Shown piece after piece: positions 934 through 33,097 of a stretch of DNA of 36,193 nucleotides (position 1 is its first letter; each line of letters begins with the position of its first letter). The stretch lies in the IMG/VR virus record IMGVR_UViG_3300045242_000042, positions 1-36,193 of that record; one strand, 5' to 3'. The stretch comes from a virus. A program made the position numbers and the translations under genes. The notes under the pieces are model-generated. The model saw only the letters and a program-made list of their open reading frames with translations. It made no database searches and had not been told where the DNA came from.

Positions 934-956
934 GGCTCACGTCGTGAACGTGAGCC
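934..956 (+). repeat. Leader hairpin 5' of the 992 gene
   Basis: Perfect 9-bp stem GGCTCACGT/ACGTGAGCC with loop CGTGA. A small second stem follows (AGGCA/TGCCT, 961-974) and then AGGAAGAGGGAATC immediately before the ATG. Two hairpins plus this ribosome-binding sequence make one leader module. It could terminate the upstream transcript, but no U-run is present. Confidence 0.7.
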
Positions 957-991
957 TTAGAGGCATCACTGCCTAACAGGAAGAGGGAATC

Positions 992-1174
992 ATGAGCCAC
1001 CGTACCGCTGTCGGTAATCGCGCCCCTTCGTCCAAGTTCGGGCGCAACAAGTGGAAGTGTGACAAGTACGCCTCCGAGGGTCGCAAGCAGAAGAACGCTG
1101 CCCGTAAGGCTGCAACCATCGCACGCAACCTGGCCAAGGCCGCTGGAATGATCAGCGCACTGTCGAGCAACTGA
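992..1174 (+). CDS. Small basic protein
   Basis: 60 aa from ATG preceded by AGGAAGAGGGAATC. Very rich in Lys, Arg and Ala with a helical C-terminal half, so nucleic-acid binding is possible, but no named fold is visible. The reverse-strand ORFs here are shadows: the plus frame has the ribosome-binding site. Confidence 0.75.
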   Translation: MSHRTAVGNRAPSSKFGRNKWKCDKYASEGRKQKNAARKAATIARNLAKAAGMISALSSN

Positions 1175-1181
1175 AGCATCA

Positions 1182-1221
1182 GCCCTAATGGCATACATCC
1201 TGGTTCGAGTCCAGGAAGGGC
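1182..1221 (+). other. tRNA T-arm-like minihelix
   Basis: CCTGG-TTCGAGT-CCAGG (1199-1215) is a canonical T-arm with the invariant TTCGA loop. It is enclosed by GCCCT (1182-1186) and AGGGC (1217-1221). No D-arm or anticodon arm can be folded upstream, because the space is occupied by the end of the 992 gene. It could be the relic of a tRNA 3' half or a tRNA-like RNA element; it is not a functional tRNA. Confidence 0.5.
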
Positions 1222-1224
1222 ACT

Positions 1225-1246
1225 GGCGACCCTCTAAGGGGTCGCC
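1225..1246 (+). repeat. Leader hairpin 5' of the 1263 gene
   Basis: Perfect 8-bp stem GGCGACCC/GGGTCGCC, loop TCTAAG, followed directly by TTTCAGGAAGGAGAGA and the start codon. Same layout as the other leaders in this region. Confidence 0.75.
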
Positions 1247-1262
1247 TTTCAGGAAGGAGAGA

Positions 1263-1481
1263 ATGATGATGATGACTGCGGAGCAGCTTGTCATGGGTGA
1301 CTACATTCAGCTCTCTAGCTATGGCCAGAGAGCTGCCCAGCCGGAATACGAGGATGTCTACTACGTGGACTTCATCGACTGGTATCCGGCTGGATATGTC
1401 GTTCTGTACCTCCTGGAGACCTACAGCAACGACATCGCAGTCCTGCCCTGCAAGCTGTCCGAAAAGGTTGAGGTCATCTGA
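1263..1481 (+). CDS. Small hypothetical protein, GD-type beta-rich
   Basis: 72 aa starting at one of four consecutive ATG codons (1263-1274) right after AGGAAGGAGAGA. A longer form from 1188 would begin inside the T-arm-like element and is rejected. LVMGDYIQL near the N-terminus and EKVEVI at the end resemble the products at 81 and 254. Aromatic-rich middle. Function unknown. Confidence 0.75.
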   Translation: MMMMTAEQLVMGDYIQLSSYGQRAAQPEYEDVYYVDFIDWYPAGYVVLYLLETYSNDIAVLPCKLSEKVEVI

Positions 1482-1708
1482 TGTTCGGCAAGAAGAAGTC
1501 CGAAGGAACCAGTCAGCCGAGCACTACGGCGGTCAAGATTGAGTTCCAGCTCACAACCGAGAACATGCTTGCGCCCAAGCATGTCGTGGAGGTCACCATG
1601 GCTTCCAACGAGGTCAATGACCTGAGTCGACTGCGAGACAAGGCCGCTTGGGCCGAGAATCGCAATCCCACTCAGGTTGAGGTCCTCAGGTGGTGGACCC
1701 GTGGCTAG
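1481..1708 (+). CDS. Hypothetical protein
   Basis: 75 aa, ATG in a TGATG junction with the previous gene. After a polar N-terminus, the pattern KIEFQLTTE...NPTQVEVLRWW resembles the next gene product (FEVFYMNTE...HPENIEIHGW), suggesting a tandem duplication. No known domain. Confidence 0.7.
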   Translation: MFGKKKSEGTSQPSTTAVKIEFQLTTENMLAPKHVVEVTMASNEVNDLSRLRDKAAWAENRNPTQVEVLRWWTRG

Positions 1709-1895
1709 GCTCGAACGCTTCGAGGTGTTCTACATGAACACCGAAGAAAAGAAGGTCAAGCAAGACACCTTCACGGTGGACAACCAGGAGACATGGTGCT
1801 CCGTGCCTGTCTTCAAGCGTCTCGTGGCTGGATACGAGAGCACCCACCCCGAGAACATTGAGATCCACGGATGGACGAAGGTGGATGGCCCGTGA
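1701..1895 (+). CDS. Hypothetical protein, paralogue-like of preceding gene
   Basis: 64 aa from GTG 1701 (8-nt overlap with the upstream stop, preceded by AGGTGG). An upstream in-frame start at 1677 would overlap more. The core shows FEVFY, TW and NIEIHGW motifs in the same order as the 1481 product. Confidence 0.65.
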   Translation: MARLERFEVFYMNTEEKKVKQDTFTVDNQETWCSVPVFKRLVAGYESTHPENIEIHGWTKVDGP

Positions 1896-2155
1896 AGCTT
1901 GATAAGCGCGTTCCGTTCGAGCCCTTCAATATGGGGTTCGAACTGTTCTGCAAGAAGCCCAAGAGGGGCGACAGAAGCATGACCCGAAAGGTCTTCATGC
2001 TTATCAAGGGCATTGAGACCCAGGTCGGATACATCTTTCTCCCCGATCCGAAGGTCATGAGGTATGCATTCAAGACCAATTGGATGGATCACCCCAGCAC
2101 GCAGCGTTTCAAGACGCTGCGTGAGGCCAAGGATGGACTGGGAGCGAAGCTGTGA
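1892..2155 (+). CDS. Hypothetical protein
   Basis: 87 aa from GTG in a GTGA overlap, with AAGGTGG upstream. The alternative ATG 1871 adds seven residues but lacks a site. Mixed basic/aromatic composition, no recognised motif. Next gene begins with another GTGA overlap. Confidence 0.65.
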   Translation: MKLDKRVPFEPFNMGFELFCKKPKRGDRSMTRKVFMLIKGIETQVGYIFLPDPKVMRYAFKTNWMDHPSTQRFKTLREAKDGLGAKL

Positions 2156-2343
2156 GGATGTTCAAGTGGTTGGGATCATTCAGTGATCCCGATGAGGCCG
2201 AACTGTTCATGTTGAGTCAAGCGAAGAAGCTCAAGGGTCTCGGATTGACCAACGAGTACAGGGTTGACATTTCTTCTGACACTACTGGACATCATGTCCA
2301 ACTGTGGAAGCGAAGTGATGTAGATCTACGCAAGAAGCACTGA
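2152..2343 (+). CDS. Hypothetical protein
   Basis: 63 aa, GTG start in a GTGA overlap with GGGAG upstream; ATG 2158 is a close alternative. Sequence such as FSDPDEAELFMLSQAKKL is consistent with an alpha/beta mini-domain. Last gene of the 1263-2343 coupled run. Not recognised. Confidence 0.65.
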   Translation: MRMFKWLGSFSDPDEAELFMLSQAKKLKGLGLTNEYRVDISSDTTGHHVQLWKRSDVDLRKKH

Positions 2344-2354
2344 CATTGCCTATG

Positions 2355-2442
2355 GTGCTCACTACGTGAGCACTGTGGAGTATGCCAGTACAGGCGTACG
2401 CAAAACCATCCCTTCGGGATGACCTTTGAATCAGAGATTCAA
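2355..2442 (+). repeat. Three-hairpin leader 5' of the 2460 gene
   Basis: GTGCTCAC/GTGAGCAC (2355-2373, loop TAC), CATCCC/GGGATG (2407-2421, giving a C-TTCG-G type tetraloop) and TTGAATC/GATTCAA (2426-2442, loop AGA). These are followed by CAGGAGGAGAGAAT and the start codon. The last two form the same double-hairpin plus site arrangement seen at 2799 and 3260. Confidence 0.7.
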
Positions 2443-2459
2443 ACGCAGGAGGAGAGAAT

Positions 2460-2789
2460 ATGCTTACCGTGGAACAGCGGGTTCAGCGTGGCATCGCCTA
2501 TCTGGACCTCTTTGGACCTGAGAACTGGCGAGACCTGATTCAGAAGCAGTACATCAACATGGCTAGCGCCTATGACTGCATCGCTGGTCAGGTGTTCGGC
2601 AACTACCATGACATGCCCTATGGCTTCAATCGAGCCGACTACGGCTTCATGATGACCGACGCGGAAGAGATCGCGCACAGCGATGCCATGACTGACTGGT
2701 ACAACCTGCCCGGTGACGACGACCTTCCGCCTTACCCCGTTTTTGGCATGGCTCTTCGTGATGAGTGGATCAAGCAGCTGTCTGTGTGA
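2460..2789 (+). CDS. Conserved actinophage-type hypothetical protein
   Basis: 109 aa, ATG right after GGAGGAGAGAAT. The N-terminal layout (RGIAYLD, then W, then SAYDCIAGQVFGNY) resembles a small protein family common in actinobacteriophages with a conserved Cys-x-x-G-Q-hydrophobic-x-G-x-Y segment. Function of that family is unknown to me. Acidic overall, no membrane segment. Confidence 0.75.
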   Translation: MLTVEQRVQRGIAYLDLFGPENWRDLIQKQYINMASAYDCIAGQVFGNYHDMPYGFNRADYGFMMTDAEEIAHSDAMTDWYNLPGDDDLPPYPVFGMALRDEWIKQLSV

Positions 2790-2798
2790 GTGAGGCTT

Positions 2799-2839
2799 GG
2801 CACATCCTTGGATGTGCCTTTCCTGATCTACACAGATCA
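2799..2839 (+). repeat. Double-hairpin leader 5' of the 2864 gene
   Basis: GGCACATCC/GGATGTGCC (2799-2818, 9 bp, very short loop) then TGATCT/AGATCA (2824-2839, loop ACAC), followed by CAGGGAGAGAGA and the start codon. Confidence 0.75.
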
Positions 2840-2863
2840 CTGGTTCAAATACAGGGAGAGAGA

Positions 2864-3253
2864 ATGAGCGACTACAGCGATCTCGCCACGCTTGCCGAGT
2901 TCGGTGAGGAGATCAGTGCTACTGCCCAGACCATCAAGGGCTGGTTGGACAAGCACAATGAGTCCGTCGCAGAGGATGGCAAGATCAAGCCCCTGCGGAC
3001 GTTCGGCAACACGAACGTCTACAGTCGCAAGGCACTGCTCCATATGGCTGCCGAACGTGGCAACACGCAGGCCATCAAGACTGCTGGATACGTTCACCCG
3101 GACAAGTTCAAGGAGTCCGAGGATGCTCGCATCCGTCTTGCTGGCGAGAATGCGATGATGGAGACCGAGCTTTCCTGGCTTCGCACCGAGTACGCTCGCG
3201 CTGCTGACGAGTTGGGTTGGACGCACAACTACCACCAGTATGCGTCTGAGTGA
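2864..3253 (+). CDS. Putative DNA-binding protein, winged-helix-like
   Basis: 129 aa from ATG 2864, directly after GGGAGAGAGA. The longer in-frame ORF would run through the leader hairpins and is rejected. Residues 5-60 read helix (DLATLAEFGEEI), helix (TAQTIKGWLDKH), then a strand-turn-strand (IKPLRTFGNTNVYSRKALL) like a MerR/excisionase winged helix, followed by a helical tail with a Met/Glu-rich segment. A role as transcriptional regulator is inferred from this pattern only. Confidence 0.6.
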   Translation: MSDYSDLATLAEFGEEISATAQTIKGWLDKHNESVAEDGKIKPLRTFGNTNVYSRKALLHMAAERGNTQAIKTAGYVHPDKFKESEDARIRLAGENAMMETELSWLRTEYARAADELGWTHNYHQYASE

Positions 3254-3259
3254 GGTGAT

Positions 3260-3302
3260 GCACGCCCCTAAGGGGCGTGCTTTGCCTGATCCAGACGGAT
3301 CA
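3260..3302 (+). repeat. Double-hairpin leader 5' of the 3328 gene
   Basis: GCACGCCCC/GGGGCGTGC (3260-3280, 9 bp, loop TAA) followed by TGATCC/GGATCA (3287-3302, loop AGAC), then CACAGGAAGAGAGAATC and the ATG. Best example of the leader module. Confidence 0.8.
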
Positions 3303-3327
3303 TCTTCACACACAGGAAGAGAGAATC

Positions 3328-3777
3328 ATGTCTGACAAGATTGTCGTTGATCTGGCCAAGGCTGTCACAACTGTGCGTCAGCTGATCAACGAGAAGCCCG
3401 AGGGTTACAGGTACCAGGACAATCCCTTCGCGGGTGAAGGCACGTGCCGCAATATCCTCTGGTCCCCGATCATGACCTTTCCTGACGACATGCAGCCCGG
3501 CTGCATTGTTGGCAGTGTCGTGGTCAAGCTTGGAGTCAAGCCTGTCGAGATCTTCACTACGAATGCTGTCTTCAGTGGTGTCCATGCTCTCTTCAGTGCA
3601 TTCCATGACAAGTTCACTATCACCGACTCTGCCTCTAGGTACCTGGTCCTTTGTCAGGGCTTGCAGGATAGCGGTGTCAGTTGGGCAGATGCCCATTCGA
3701 TTGCACTGAATAACCTCCTCCACGGAGAGGTGCACATCCTTTCCATTGCAGATCTTGAGTGGCTCGCCGCGCACTGA
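3328..3777 (+). CDS. Hypothetical protein, tandem paralogue A
   Basis: 149 aa from ATG 3328 after AGGAAGAGAGAATC. Contains QPGCIVGSVVVKLGV (about residues 56-70) and LQDSGVSWADAHSIAL in its C-terminal half. Both segments recur in the next gene (KPGCIIGFMFDALGV and QQDAGYSWGDSLKYAA), so the two are paralogues. Similar PxCIxG...LGV proteins occur widely in actinophages without known function. No signal peptide or catalytic motif seen. Confidence 0.75.
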   Translation: MSDKIVVDLAKAVTTVRQLINEKPEGYRYQDNPFAGEGTCRNILWSPIMTFPDDMQPGCIVGSVVVKLGVKPVEIFTTNAVFSGVHALFSAFHDKFTITDSASRYLVLCQGLQDSGVSWADAHSIALNNLLHGEVHILSIADLEWLAAH

Positions 3778-3788
3778 ATCGTTGACAT

Positions 3789-3812
3789 GGTTCACATCTT
3801 CGGATGCGAGCC
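3789..3812 (+). repeat. Leader hairpin 5' of the 3846 gene
   Basis: GGTTCACATC-TTCG-GATGCGAGCC folds into a 10-position stem with one wobble and one mismatch around a C-UUCG-G tetraloop. ACGAAGGAGAGA and the ATG follow. The second small hairpin of the module is not evident here. Confidence 0.6.
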
Positions 3813-3845
3813 TTGTGATCCATTCAGTACGACACGAAGGAGAGA

Positions 3846-4247
3846 ATGATGATCGAGTTGACTCTCGAGAAGGCTTTCAAGCTCGCCAAGAGCTTCGTGG
3901 AGCCCAATCCTGACTTCATCTACGAGGATGAGAATGGACGGAGCAGCCTGGCTGCGAACTGTCAATACATTCACGGTACTGGCACTAAGGATGAAAAGCC
4001 TGGCTGCATCATTGGCTTCATGTTCGACGCTCTTGGCGTCGAACGGAGCAGGCTCATTAACTTCGACAGGCACGCTAGCGTCGCCTGGGACGCCATGCGT
4101 ATTCTCAAGCAGGATGGCGTGATGAGTATCGAAGAAGGTGCCTTCAACTTCATCGACTGTCTTCAGCGGCAGCAGGATGCAGGGTACAGCTGGGGTGACT
4201 CCCTGAAGTACGCAGCCGGGATCGTTGGCATTGACTACCAGGGCTGA
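3846..4247 (+). CDS. Hypothetical protein, tandem paralogue B
   Basis: 133 aa, ATGATG start right after AAGGAGAGA. Paralogue of the 3328 product by the shared PGCI-[IV]-G...LGV and Q-[DQ]-D-x-G-x-SW-[AG]-D segments. Expressed from its own leader, suggesting that the leader and gene were duplicated together. Function unknown. Confidence 0.75.
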   Translation: MMIELTLEKAFKLAKSFVEPNPDFIYEDENGRSSLAANCQYIHGTGTKDEKPGCIIGFMFDALGVERSRLINFDRHASVAWDAMRILKQDGVMSIEEGAFNFIDCLQRQQDAGYSWGDSLKYAAGIVGIDYQG

Positions 4248-4929
4248 ACTGGAAGCCGTCAGGTTCATTCTGGACAAAGAATGGCCTGACGGCACCACCA
4301 GCGACTCAGTAGCAAGGGCTGCCGTCAAAGCCTTGGATGACCTGAGAAAGACGTCTCAGCGGCCCCTCGGAGGGCCGCCTAAGCCTGGTATGGCATTCAA
4401 GCCGTACTGGTCCAGTGATACGCACTACGTGCGATGGATCGGGGACGAGAGGGGAAAGACGCTGGTTTGGGCTGTGACGAAAGATTCCGACAATGGGATC
4501 CTGACTCATGTCAATTCCCCGATCTGGCAGTACTCCACTCTCGTTCCCCCCGCCGAGACCAAGACCAGGAAGTATAAGGTCATTGATCCTGATACTGGCG
4601 AGCAGGCCATGGATATGACCAAGACCAGGAAGTACAAGATCATTGATCCTGATACTGGTGAGCATGTCAGGGATGAAAATGGTGAACTGATGTACGACGT
4701 CAGGGGTGAACTGATGTATGACATCAGGACCATTCCGCCCATCACTGACACTCTGTTCACCAACACCCTTGGTCTCGTCCCTGGCGACAAGCTGTCCGTC
4801 AAGAATGTAGGCAACTATGTCGTTGAGGAAGTCTTCAGTGGCGGAGCGTTGATCAGATTCCAGGATGGAACCATCTGGGGGGAGAGCAATCATGATCTCC
4901 AGAGGTATTACAAGGATGGTTGGATATGA
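4225..4929 (+). CDS. Hypothetical protein with recent internal tandem repeats
   Basis: Open frame of 234 codons. No ATG exists in the first 55 codons, so translation probably starts at TTG 4225 or TTG 4231, overlapping the previous gene by about 20 nt. After an N-terminal helical region, residues about 112-150 hold two copies of TKTRKYK-[VI]-IDPDTGE. They are followed by two copies of GELMYD-[VI]-R. The C-terminal part is beta-rich. The frame is kept through both duplications (60 and 24 nt), so the protein is intact. No known family recognised. Confidence 0.65.
   Translation: MALTTRAELEAVRFILDKEWPDGTTSDSVARAAVKALDDLRKTSQRPLGGPPKPGMAFKPYWSSDTHYVRWIGDERGKTLVWAVTKDSDNGILTHVNSPIWQYSTLVPPAETKTRKYKVIDPDTGEQAMDMTKTRKYKIIDPDTGEHVRDENGELMYDVRGELMYDIRTIPPITDTLFTNTLGLVPGDKLSVKNVGNYVVEEVFSGGALIRFQDGTIWGESNHDLQRYYKDGWI
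4558..4677 (+). repeat. 60-bp tandem duplication within gene
   Basis: Units 4558-4617 and 4618-4677. The first about 49 nt of each are nearly identical (differences such as TATAAGGTC versus TACAAGATC), encoding TKTRKYK-IDPDTGE twice. Multiple of three, so the frame is preserved. Confidence 0.85.
4681..4728 (+). repeat. 24-bp tandem duplication within gene
   Basis: GGTGAACTGATGTACGACGT at 4681 recurs at 4705 with two changes; the unit encodes GELMYD-V/I-R. It directly follows the 60-bp duplication. Confidence 0.85.
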
Positions 4930-18425: not shown

Positions 18426-18463
18426 AAGTAGCCCCCAGTCCAATATTGGACTGGGGGCTACTT
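18426..18463. terminator. 38-nt perfect palindrome, convergent terminator
   Basis: A 19-bp arm starting AAGTAGCCCCCAGTCC and its exact complement, with AATATT at the centre and TTGTTTT after it on the plus strand. It lies between the last plus-strand gene and the last minus-strand gene, so it probably terminates both. Confidence 0.9.
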
Positions 18464-26575: not shown

Positions 26576-27580
26576 TTACGCGTTAGGCCGTGGGGTTGCA
26601 ATGGTCTGGCTCATGATGAGCGCTTCCGGCCTATACAAACTCCAACCCGCCACACCGTACCAGCCAAGAGGCTGGAAGCGAGTGAGCTTATCAACGACCG
26701 GACCACGAATGGTGTGGAACTCTTCAGCGCAAGCCTCAGCAAGAGCCTGCTGACCAACGGTGTACGTGTTGTACACACGAGTCTGAGTCGCACCAGCGCC
26801 AGCACCAACCTGAGCATTGATGGCACGAGGAGTCTCAATGAAGACGGAACCCTCGTACTCGCCAATCTCGCCAGCCCAGATGTTCTCGGCAGCCGAGTAG
26901 TTGTGCGGGTCACGCCAGGCCGCAGCACCAGTCTCAGACCGAAGGTCATAGGAGACCTGCGGGTGAATGTACGTGGTGTAGAAGCTGCCCTTGTTCGGGT
27001 GAACCTTGTTGGTCCGCAGCTGAACGACAGCAGTACGAGCCATGCTCGAACTGAAGGTGTTGTTCGCATTGGTACCAGCAGAGGTGATGGCAGTCAGAGC
27101 AGTAGGCTGAGTAGGCGTGGTACCGAAACCATAGGTCACGTTACCGGTAGCCGGATCACGACGCAGAGTCTGGGTCGTGGTAGCCAGAACGTTCTGAACA
27201 ACCAAGTCGACAGAGTCAACGAGGTTCCATGCCACCTGATTGACGAGACCGGCGGTCACGTCGGTGAAGCTGAACAGGTCGAGCTTGTTGGAAACCAGGA
27301 TCGCGTTACCGTACTCATTGAGGGTAACGGACACGGTGGTCGGGTTACCGGCCGCAACAGCGTCCGGGTCGACAAGCTCATTCAGTGGGGTGATCTGCTG
27401 AGCAAGGTCAGCATAGATCTCGAAAACGACACTGGAGCCAGGCATAGCCTGCTGAACAGGTCGCTTGTCCGCAACCATGCGGAACATGGGCTGAGCGCGC
27501 AGTGCGAACTCAAGAGCCCGGTCATACGCGGTCTGAACCAGGTTCGCCATTGCGGCGGTACCGGTAAACGCGTTTGCCAT
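26576..27580 (-). CDS. Major capsid protein, N4-gp56 family
   Basis: 334 aa. Layout typical of N4-gp56-type coat proteins: N-terminal helix, PGSSVVFEIYADL, LNEY...VSNKLDLFSFTD, LVDSVDLVVQNVLATTT, VQLRTNKVHPNKGSFYTTYI, IGEYEGSVFIETPRA, VVDKLTRFQPLGWYGVAGWS. HK97-fold coat protein building the icosahedral head. The ORF has no strong internal hairpins, unlike most genes here. Preceded in transcription by the scaffold-like gene and followed by a terminator-type hairpin. Confidence 0.9.
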   Translation of the reverse strand: MANAFTGTAAMANLVQTAYDRALEFALRAQPMFRMVADKRPVQQAMPGSSVVFEIYADLAQQITPLNELVDPDAVAAGNPTTVSVTLNEYGNAILVSNKLDLFSFTDVTAGLVNQVAWNLVDSVDLVVQNVLATTTQTLRRDPATGNVTYGFGTTPTQPTALTAITSAGTNANNTFSSSMARTAVVQLRTNKVHPNKGSFYTTYIHPQVSYDLRSETGAAAWRDPHNYSAAENIWAGEIGEYEGSVFIETPRAINAQVGAGAGATQTRVYNTYTVGQQALAEACAEEFHTIRGPVVDKLTRFQPLGWYGVAGWSLYRPEALIMSQTIATPRPNA

Positions 27581-32264: not shown

Positions 32265-33097
32265 TAGATCCCCTTAATGGCATTGACCAGTGCACCCATG
32301 TAAGTAGTGGCTGCCTGATAAGCACCATACTCAGGGTTCTTCTCTGCCTCCTGCTGAGCCAGCAGCTGAGCAGCAGCACTACTCACGCCACCAGTTGTAT
32401 TCCTGCTGGTGTTGGTCGTATTGCCAAGACTGTCAGTCGTGGTAGTGATGGTTGCCTGCGTCGGATTCGCAGACTCCTGGGAGTTCAGCAGGCTGGCAAA
32501 CTGAGCAGACTCATCAGCTGTAGGCGCACGCCCCAGGAGGGACTGTGCCGCACTCTTGAAGATGGCATTGGCATCTACTCGACTGGTCAGTGAAGTATCA
32601 CTGGTTGTCTGGGTCTTGGTACCAGCGAGACTGGCAGCAGGACCGCTCTTCGCAGAGATATCCTTGGCCAAGATATCCAACGGGGTAACAGTCATGCCAC
32701 CGGCAAGATAGTTGGCAGACTGCTGAACATAGTCTCCCCAAGCCTGTGCAATGGTACTGTCGGGCGCCGTGAGGGCGCCCTTATCAATCAGTGCAAGCTT
32801 GGACCTGAACTGCTGGCGCTGGTCATCGCTCCACTTGTAGTACTCGTTGGACATGTCAGTGACAGACTTTGTGGAGCCCCTGAATGCCTGAGACTGAAGA
32901 TAGCTGCCATGCTCGTAGTCACTGAGTGGTCGACTCTGTGGACCGTAGGTCTTGCCACCGAAGGCAGTGGTTGGCTTGCCGCCAACATTGGGAGCAGCCT
33001 GTGCGCCCACGAAGGAATTGAATGTCTGATCCTGCGAGCTTGGCTGTGGTGCTGATCCGGTAGGACTAGCACTTGGCTGTGGCAGTGGAGTTGTCAT
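32264..33097 (-). CDS. Virion-associated protein
   Basis: 277 aa, ATG in a TAATG junction. Pro/Ser-rich start, then YYKWSDDQRQQFRSKLALID (helical) and AQSLLGRAPTADESAQFASL, a pattern recurring in actinophage internal structural proteins; Gln/Ala-rich end. Sits between the giant protein and the NlpC/P60 protein. Confidence 0.6.
   Translation of the reverse strand: MTTPLPQPSASPTGSAPQPSSQDQTFNSFVGAQAAPNVGGKPTTAFGGKTYGPQSRPLSDYEHGSYLQSQAFRGSTKSVTDMSNEYYKWSDDQRQQFRSKLALIDKGALTAPDSTIAQAWGDYVQQSANYLAGGMTVTPLDILAKDISAKSGPAASLAGTKTQTTSDTSLTSRVDANAIFKSAAQSLLGRAPTADESAQFASLLNSQESANPTQATITTTTDSLGNTTNTSRNTTGGVSSAAAQLLAQQEAEKNPEYGAYQAATTYMGALVNAIKGI

Follow-up and report, generated by a model that had tools for sequence, protein, structure and literature searches.

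We analyzed a single IMG/VR virus record of 36,193 bases, a genome fragment referred to here at its full length as the window, in which almost every early gene of a Streptomyces-type phage is preceded by a small folded RNA. These RNAs, termed leaders and named by the start position of the gene that follows, occur in two forms: the usual one, in which a hairpin loop pairs with an upstream arm to give a likely pseudoknot, and one, represented once in the window, that contains a tRNA-like minihelix. RNA pairing in the leaders is strongly supported by covariation. Their structure is well supported, and what we infer is their function: the explanation we favor is that the leaders may well be structured intercistronic RNAs that punctuate the early polycistronic mRNA.

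The major capsid protein of the window (26576-27580, - strand) is at most 78% identical to those of the Beephvirinae Streptomyces phages Immanuel3, Manuel and FlowerPower, and by sequence we assign the window to a Beephvirinae-like Streptomyces phage. Early genes occupy the + strand at the left of the window, with the structural genes on the - strand. Most of the window's leaders are also covered by two close relatives, L005 and L087.

A first-pass annotation of this DNA had reported near-identical purine boxes directly 5' of the starts at 992, 1263, 2460, 2864, 3328 and 3846, and all six were found at these sites. The pattern GAGAGAAT-N(0-3)-ATG occurs four times on the + strand of the window versus 0.22 expected, and does not occur on the - strand. 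The GC-rich hairpin reported before each of the six is also present (934-956, 1225-1246, 2354-2373 with 2407-2421, 2799-2818, 3260-3280 and 3789-3812), as is the second small hairpin in the leaders of 992, 2460, 2864 and 3328. The second hairpin of leader 3846 is degenerate in the window and intact in L005. The gene starting at 81 has a seventh copy (40-80) that consists of the hairpin only, with a stem that differs in sequence in L005 and L087 while the pairing is kept. RNA folding z-scores of the window leaders range from -1.5 to -5.5. A lone GC-rich hairpin in 70 nt is not rare, occurring in 11% of random stretches and at 6 of 30 other gene starts, so that it is the recurrence of the architecture, and its conservation, that carry the case. 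The purine box alone was rejected as a marker of the module, since a scan of bacterial genomes gave scattered matches in many phyla.

Two features go beyond that annotation: the tRNA-like minihelix in leader 1263, described below, and a pairing between the second-hairpin loop and an upstream arm in other leaders. In leaders 992, 2864, 3328 and 3846, the second hairpin has a loop (a') with complementarity to an arm of 5-8 nt (a); this arm is located 5' of the first hairpin, in most cases at or close to the stop codon that ends the preceding gene. The leaders of the window other than 1263 are as follows.

40-80, + strand: leader 81, hairpin only (hairpin 40-62, purine box 72-80; z-score -5.5)
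919-924, + strand: leader 992 arm a (CAGTGA), immediately following the TAG stop (915-917) that ends the upstream gene; pairs with 966-971
934-956, + strand: leader 992 first hairpin, 9 bp; in L087 the hairpin ahead of this gene differs but is likewise paired
961-974, + strand: leader 992 second hairpin, AGGC-ATCACT-GCCT, with 966-971 in the loop region as the partner of arm a
979-991, + strand: leader 992 purine Shine-Dalgarno box, GGAAGAGGGAATC
2354-2459, + strand: leader 2460, a variant (hairpins 2354-2373, 2407-2421 and 2425-2443; purine box 2448-2459)
2781-2788, + strand: leader 2864 arm a (TCTGTGTG), reaching into the TGA stop (2787-2789) that ends the upstream gene; TCTGTGT at 2781-2787 pairs with 2830-2836
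2799-2818, + strand: leader 2864 first hairpin; at this site L005 has a stem of the GCACGCCCC/GGGGCGTGC type, changed in sequence with the same pairing
2824-2839, + strand: leader 2864 second hairpin, TGATC-TACACA-GATCA; its loop pairs with arm a
2854-2863, + strand: leader 2864 purine box, GGGAGAGAGA
3243-3248, + strand: leader 3328 arm a (CGTCTG), 2 nt 5' of a TGA stop (3251-3253); pairs with 3292-3297
3260-3280, + strand: leader 3328 first hairpin
3287-3302, + strand: leader 3328 second hairpin, TGATC-CAGACG-GATCA; its loop is fully complementary to arm a
3315-3327, + strand: leader 3328 purine box, GGAAGAGAGAATC
3773-3779, + strand: leader 3846 arm a (ACTGAAT), including a TGA stop (3775-3777); pairs with 3822-3828
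3789-3812, + strand: leader 3846 first hairpin, with a UUCG loop
3816-3834, + strand: leader 3846 second hairpin, stem degenerate in the window; loop segment ATTCAGT (3822-3828) is complementary to arm a
3836-3845, + strand: leader 3846 purine box, GAAGGAGAGA

Taken singly, each of these four matches would be expected by chance at 0.5-6%. Arm-loop pairing emerged from parsing the leaders of nine related genomes and was assessed over approximately 30 relatives. The leader sets come from motif scans and include some chance matches, and the relatives have common ancestry, a kinship that non-redundant sets lessen and do not abolish. Pairing was found in 42 of 64 non-redundant leaders, these being the ones with a candidate second hairpin, picked blind to pairing, as compared to 14.2±3.1 after arm swapping (42 was reached in 0 of 5000 shuffles). 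Control stretches further upstream paired in 6-12 of the 64. In a fixed register, the best among 15 scanned, all five pairs were formed in 34 of 66 leaders versus 8.1±2.3, and in 9 of 29 non-redundant leaders versus 1.2±1.0. The b/b' stem of the second hairpin, tested independently starting from a/a', was present in 30 of 77 cases versus 8.3±2.6. When depositor-annotated genes were tested without use of the purine box, 24 of 38 displayed the pairing versus 9.6±2.4. Among late genes, two hairpins were found in 2 of 34. Neither TM4 (1 of 5) nor BRock (4 of 10) exceeded its swapped controls in arm-loop pairing, and a search for this pairing in leader 2460 (2354-2459) found none. The arm-loop pairing is leader-specific, position-specific and confined to the early strand.

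The first-pass annotation had described arms that vary within a kept architecture. Indeed, the arms differ freely and yet covary as RNA helices in the swap tests. It had proposed searching the complete genome for further copies, whose absence would have counted against the module; the record is a fragment, and the further copies, which are many, were found in relatives. Among the leader-pattern contigs of 26.9 kb or longer, all those with modules also encode a capsid homologue, and the two long leader-pattern contigs without a capsid homologue have no module. The median spacing is 9 nt between arm a and the first hairpin, 5 nt from one hairpin to the other and 6 nt up to the purine box. Among 148 unique modules, some of them chance matches, the second hairpin mostly ends 16-21 nt 5' of the start codon. 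First-hairpin loops are frequently UNCG.

The two helices follow the interlocking order a-b-a'-b' that defines an H-type pseudoknot, and both are supported by swap tests. All loop bases except the first, which is unpaired, take part in the pairing in the fixed register, an arrangement that would suit a pseudoknot of the kissing type. For most of the leaders tested, minimum free energy folding with Vienna, which does not allow pseudoknots, gave a long a/a'-closed hairpin in preference to the two-hairpin fold. Because energy folding usually prefers this long hairpin, a/a' and b/b' may either coexist as a pseudoknot or represent mutually exclusive folds.

Leader 1263 has the second form, in which a tRNA-like minihelix precedes the GC-rich hairpin. 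Its parts are the following.

1182-1223, + strand: tRNA-like minihelix, GCCCT-aatggcatacat-CCTGG-TTCGAGT-CCAGG-a-AGGGC-AC
1182-1186, + strand: acceptor-like 5' strand, GCCCT
1187-1198, + strand: D-loop-like aatggcatacat with GG
1199-1215, + strand: T-arm, CCTGG-TTCGAGT-CCAGG
1217-1221, + strand: acceptor 3' strand
1222-1223, + strand: AC, R73-C74-like
1225-1246, + strand: GC-rich hairpin of leader 1263, 9 bp
1252-1262, + strand: purine box of leader 1263, GGAAGGAGAGA

The element at 1182-1223 does not have the anticodon arm of a full-cloverleaf tRNA gene and received no call from ARAGORN or Rfam. Among copies elsewhere, ARAGORN called a single tRNA, coinciding with a copy in L150, and nothing at those of L118, L128, L142 and L144; Rfam reported nothing at those of L118 and L128. 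We collected 120 unique minihelices before open reading frames, of which 108 have G1-C72 and 112 have R73-C74 (AC or GC after the acceptor). They share a TTCRANY T-loop and the linker consensus AMYGGCAKACAY, position -1 is A in 91, and they comprise 38 acceptor and 39 T-stem sequences. Shuffled sequence gave one minihelix match in 0.61 Mb.

In relatives with few or no pseudoknot leaders, minihelices number up to seven per genome and are found on the early strand. The two forms are nearly mutually exclusive per genome. The equivalent of gene 1263 carries the tRNA-like form in the window and L087 and the pseudoknot form in L005. At a given gene, one leader form can take the place of the other.

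Scanning of viral contigs and a search of cultured phages located the minihelix widely outside the Beephvirinae, in the Camvirus phages Amela and Kamino and in the cluster R mycobacteriophages Send513 and Papyrus. Gordonia and Microbacterium records gave minihelix matches by BLAST only, and BLAST matches in haloviruses may be true tRNAs. All 8 minihelices of Amela and all 12 of Send513 are on one strand and unannotated; most start 6-15 nt past a stop and end 14-58 nt ahead of an annotated start. Minihelices carry no annotated feature in the cultured records examined. In L365 (Amela), L366 (Send513), L315, L352, L312 and L343, they precede many early genes, and the capsid protein is unrelated to that of the window.

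Each leader fills the slot from the upstream stop codon to the downstream Shine-Dalgarno box. The first form consists of arm a, the GC-rich hairpin and then hairpin b/b', and the pairing of its loop a' with a interlocks the helices; in the second, the tRNA-like minihelix comes first and the same GC-rich hairpin after it. In the explanation we favor, either fold would leave the purine box single-stranded, independent of upstream sequence, and would supply every cistron with a structured, decay-resistant 5' boundary, with protection, insulation and effects on expression as the predicted outcome. RNase P is known to cleave model hairpins made of an acceptor stem plus a T-arm (PMC11143913). The minihelices have the acceptor-like stem, T-arm and T-loop, G1-C72 and R73-C74 of such minimal substrates, with stems that are presumably stacked; they differ as natural intergenic elements with a D-loop-like linker and no CCA, and are putative substrates. 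Host RNase P is predicted to cut them 5' of G1 of the acceptor-like stem. The pseudoknot form would play the same role through folding alone, with the ribosome terminating upstream transiently opening a/a'. RNase P can also cut a pseudoknot bearing RCCA (PMC12710915). Such substrates need this motif, and RCCA is absent after the second hairpin of the pseudoknot leaders; for this reason we rejected the pseudoknot form as an RNase P substrate and do not propose the enzyme for it. A more specific proposal, which we regard as possible rather than probable, is that these are a dedicated class of structured spacers in actinophage early mRNAs, with two interchangeable forms, in which the tRNA mimic would recruit host RNase P to give each gene a defined 5' end and an open ribosome-binding site.

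Several observations weigh against the favored explanation. Nested folding prefers the long a/a' hairpin in most leaders tested, so that a pseudoknot and a two-state switch are not separated, and leaders 81 and 2460 have neither form. Additionally, the minihelix ends in R-C without CCA, and no RCCA was seen after the second hairpin of the pseudoknot form.

The alternatives fall in plausibility from a coupling switch through a protein site and an RNA-RNA circuit to terminators. In a translational-coupling switch, which we consider rather unlikely, the a/a' long hairpin and the b/b' second hairpin would be exclusive, and a terminating ribosome covering arm a would let b/b' form near the Shine-Dalgarno box and tune initiation of the next gene. 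Arm a shares bases with a stop codon in 73 of 136 modules, a/a' and b/b' covary independently and the long hairpin is the energy minimum in most leaders tested, all of which would suit such a switch. However, most of the remaining modules have the stop 5' of arm a at a variable distance of up to ∼25 nt, neither fold covers the purine box and the tRNA-like form fills the same slot without a switch of this type.

The leaders would less probably be binding sites through which a phage or host protein acts on them jointly, such as a translational repressor or activator that recognizes shape. A single architecture ahead of many early genes does resemble a regulon, and there is precedent in T4, where gp32 binds a leader pseudoknot and RegA represses ∼30 mRNAs (PMC3014915). 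Yet the pseudoknot form has almost no conserved sequence, the tRNA-like form is shaped differently and no candidate protein was identified, and we judge this account unlikely.

Still more doubtful is a circuit of RNA-RNA regulation, in which a conserved hairpin farther along the early operon, with a loop CTCTCTCCC complementary to the shared purine box, would be the regulator and the upstream folds would only present the box. In ∼16 relatives there is one such hairpin per genome, varying in its stem and near-constant in its loop, and the conserved GAGAGA part of the box extends beyond the canonical Shine-Dalgarno sequence; the hairpin is possibly an RNA regulator of early leaders. In contrast, neither the window nor G001, G002, G008 and G015 yielded the hairpin. 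Moreover, pyrimidine loops readily match purine boxes, and the reversed-motif control is not independent, as GAGAGAG reads the same backwards. The long hairpin with the CTCTCTCCC loop and a covarying stem was located in L006 (∼38445, - strand), L091 (38103), L092 (38084), L093 (37096), L094 (39047), L095 (37732) and L096 (38920), and further in L121, L124, L149, L158, L160, L161, L164, L166 and L188. In most of these genomes it is followed by a gene with the leader CGAAAGGA.

Intrinsic terminators or attenuators between early genes are the least probable alternative and were rejected: the GC-rich hairpins, many with UUCG or UCCG loops, are followed by two or three T, but no + strand leader hairpin was called in the scan for a GC-rich stem with a T tract, the ARNOLD terminators of the Abafar depositors lie in the late region only, and a gene start comes next without an evident promoter between.

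The first-pass annotation had likened the leaders to the start-associated sequences (SAS) and extended SAS (ESAS) of cluster K mycobacteriophages. This analogy is sound with respect to position, since in both systems non-structural genes carry a repeated box at their start codons, in many cases together with an upstream element, in gaps of more than 50 bp (PMC3203893); in the leaders this upstream element is structured. It fails with respect to nature. The cluster K box has the 13-bp consensus GGGATAGGAGCCC, whereas the window boxes are GGAAGGAGAGAATC and variants. The ESAS consists of 17-bp imperfect consensus inverted repeats that, according to the authors, do not support RNA base pairing (PMC3203893), while the arms of the window leaders vary freely and covary. 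The ESAS sites of TM4 are TTGAC..CAA repeats, and this phage lacks excess arm-loop pairing. Membership in the cluster K ESAS was therefore rejected, and the window leaders resemble SAS/ESAS in position only. Some cluster K SAS sites that lack the extended element, at 32437 and 40710 in TM4 (L309), have a GC-rich RNA hairpin upstream.

The nearest known leader pseudoknot is that of gene 32 in T4 and T2, which is likewise of the H-type and precedes the translation start within a phage mRNA leader (PMC3014915). That system, however, concerns a single gene, with the pseudoknot 67 nt upstream and bound by the gene's own product, whereas leaders of the window type precede many genes per genome, vary in sequence, hold a hairpin inside the first loop and often include the previous stop in a helix. 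A 2010 review noted T4-type gene 32 as possibly the sole viral pseudoknot used in translational autoregulation (PMC3014915). Rfam 15 covariance models gave no match to the leaders at the gathering threshold; at E<=5 there were two chance-level matches far below the cut-offs, one of them over 1152-1253. No account of the two forms turned up in Rfam 15 or in searches of an open-access library, which do not extend to subscription papers and phage databases, such that prior notice is possible.

Viral leader pseudoknots are known singly. Here, 148 unique pseudoknot leaders (some of them chance matches) and 120 tRNA-like leaders occupy the gaps of actinophage genomes, including those of cultured phages, without an annotated feature in the records examined. 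With hundreds of copies, both in relatives and in unrelated actinophages, the leaders suggest an as yet undescribed viral means of marking off genes on one long message. If the tRNA-like leaders are RNase P sites, early expression in these phages would use host tRNA maturation for mRNA cutting, an idea that is directly testable in cultured phages of Streptomyces and Mycobacterium smegmatis. In mitochondrial transcripts, tRNAs act as punctuation, with tRNA-shaped spacers between genes marking processing sites. A mimic that recruits RNase P would be a viral counterpart to this arrangement, and the likeness lies in the idea of tRNA-shaped intergenic spacers as processing marks. The phage minihelices differ in that they have no anticodon arm, lie in early operons and are followed by a hairpin and a Shine-Dalgarno box, and their processing is putative. 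The leaders also represent natural examples of parts that separate genes within a single message.

Three further observations concern other parts of these genomes. A perfect 17-bp inverted repeat with a 4-nt loop is present at 18426-18463 of the window, between the convergent early and late gene blocks, and is likely a two-way terminator. Within the open reading frame at 4225-4929, an imperfect tandem repeat of ∼60 bases (accaagaccaggaagta..attgatcctgatactgg) spans positions 4562-4690, and L005 has the same repeat. Lastly, DNA primase is annotated as two overlapping genes at 30346-31219 of L006, and likewise in several Beephvirinae; this two-part primase may be a frameshifted or split gene.

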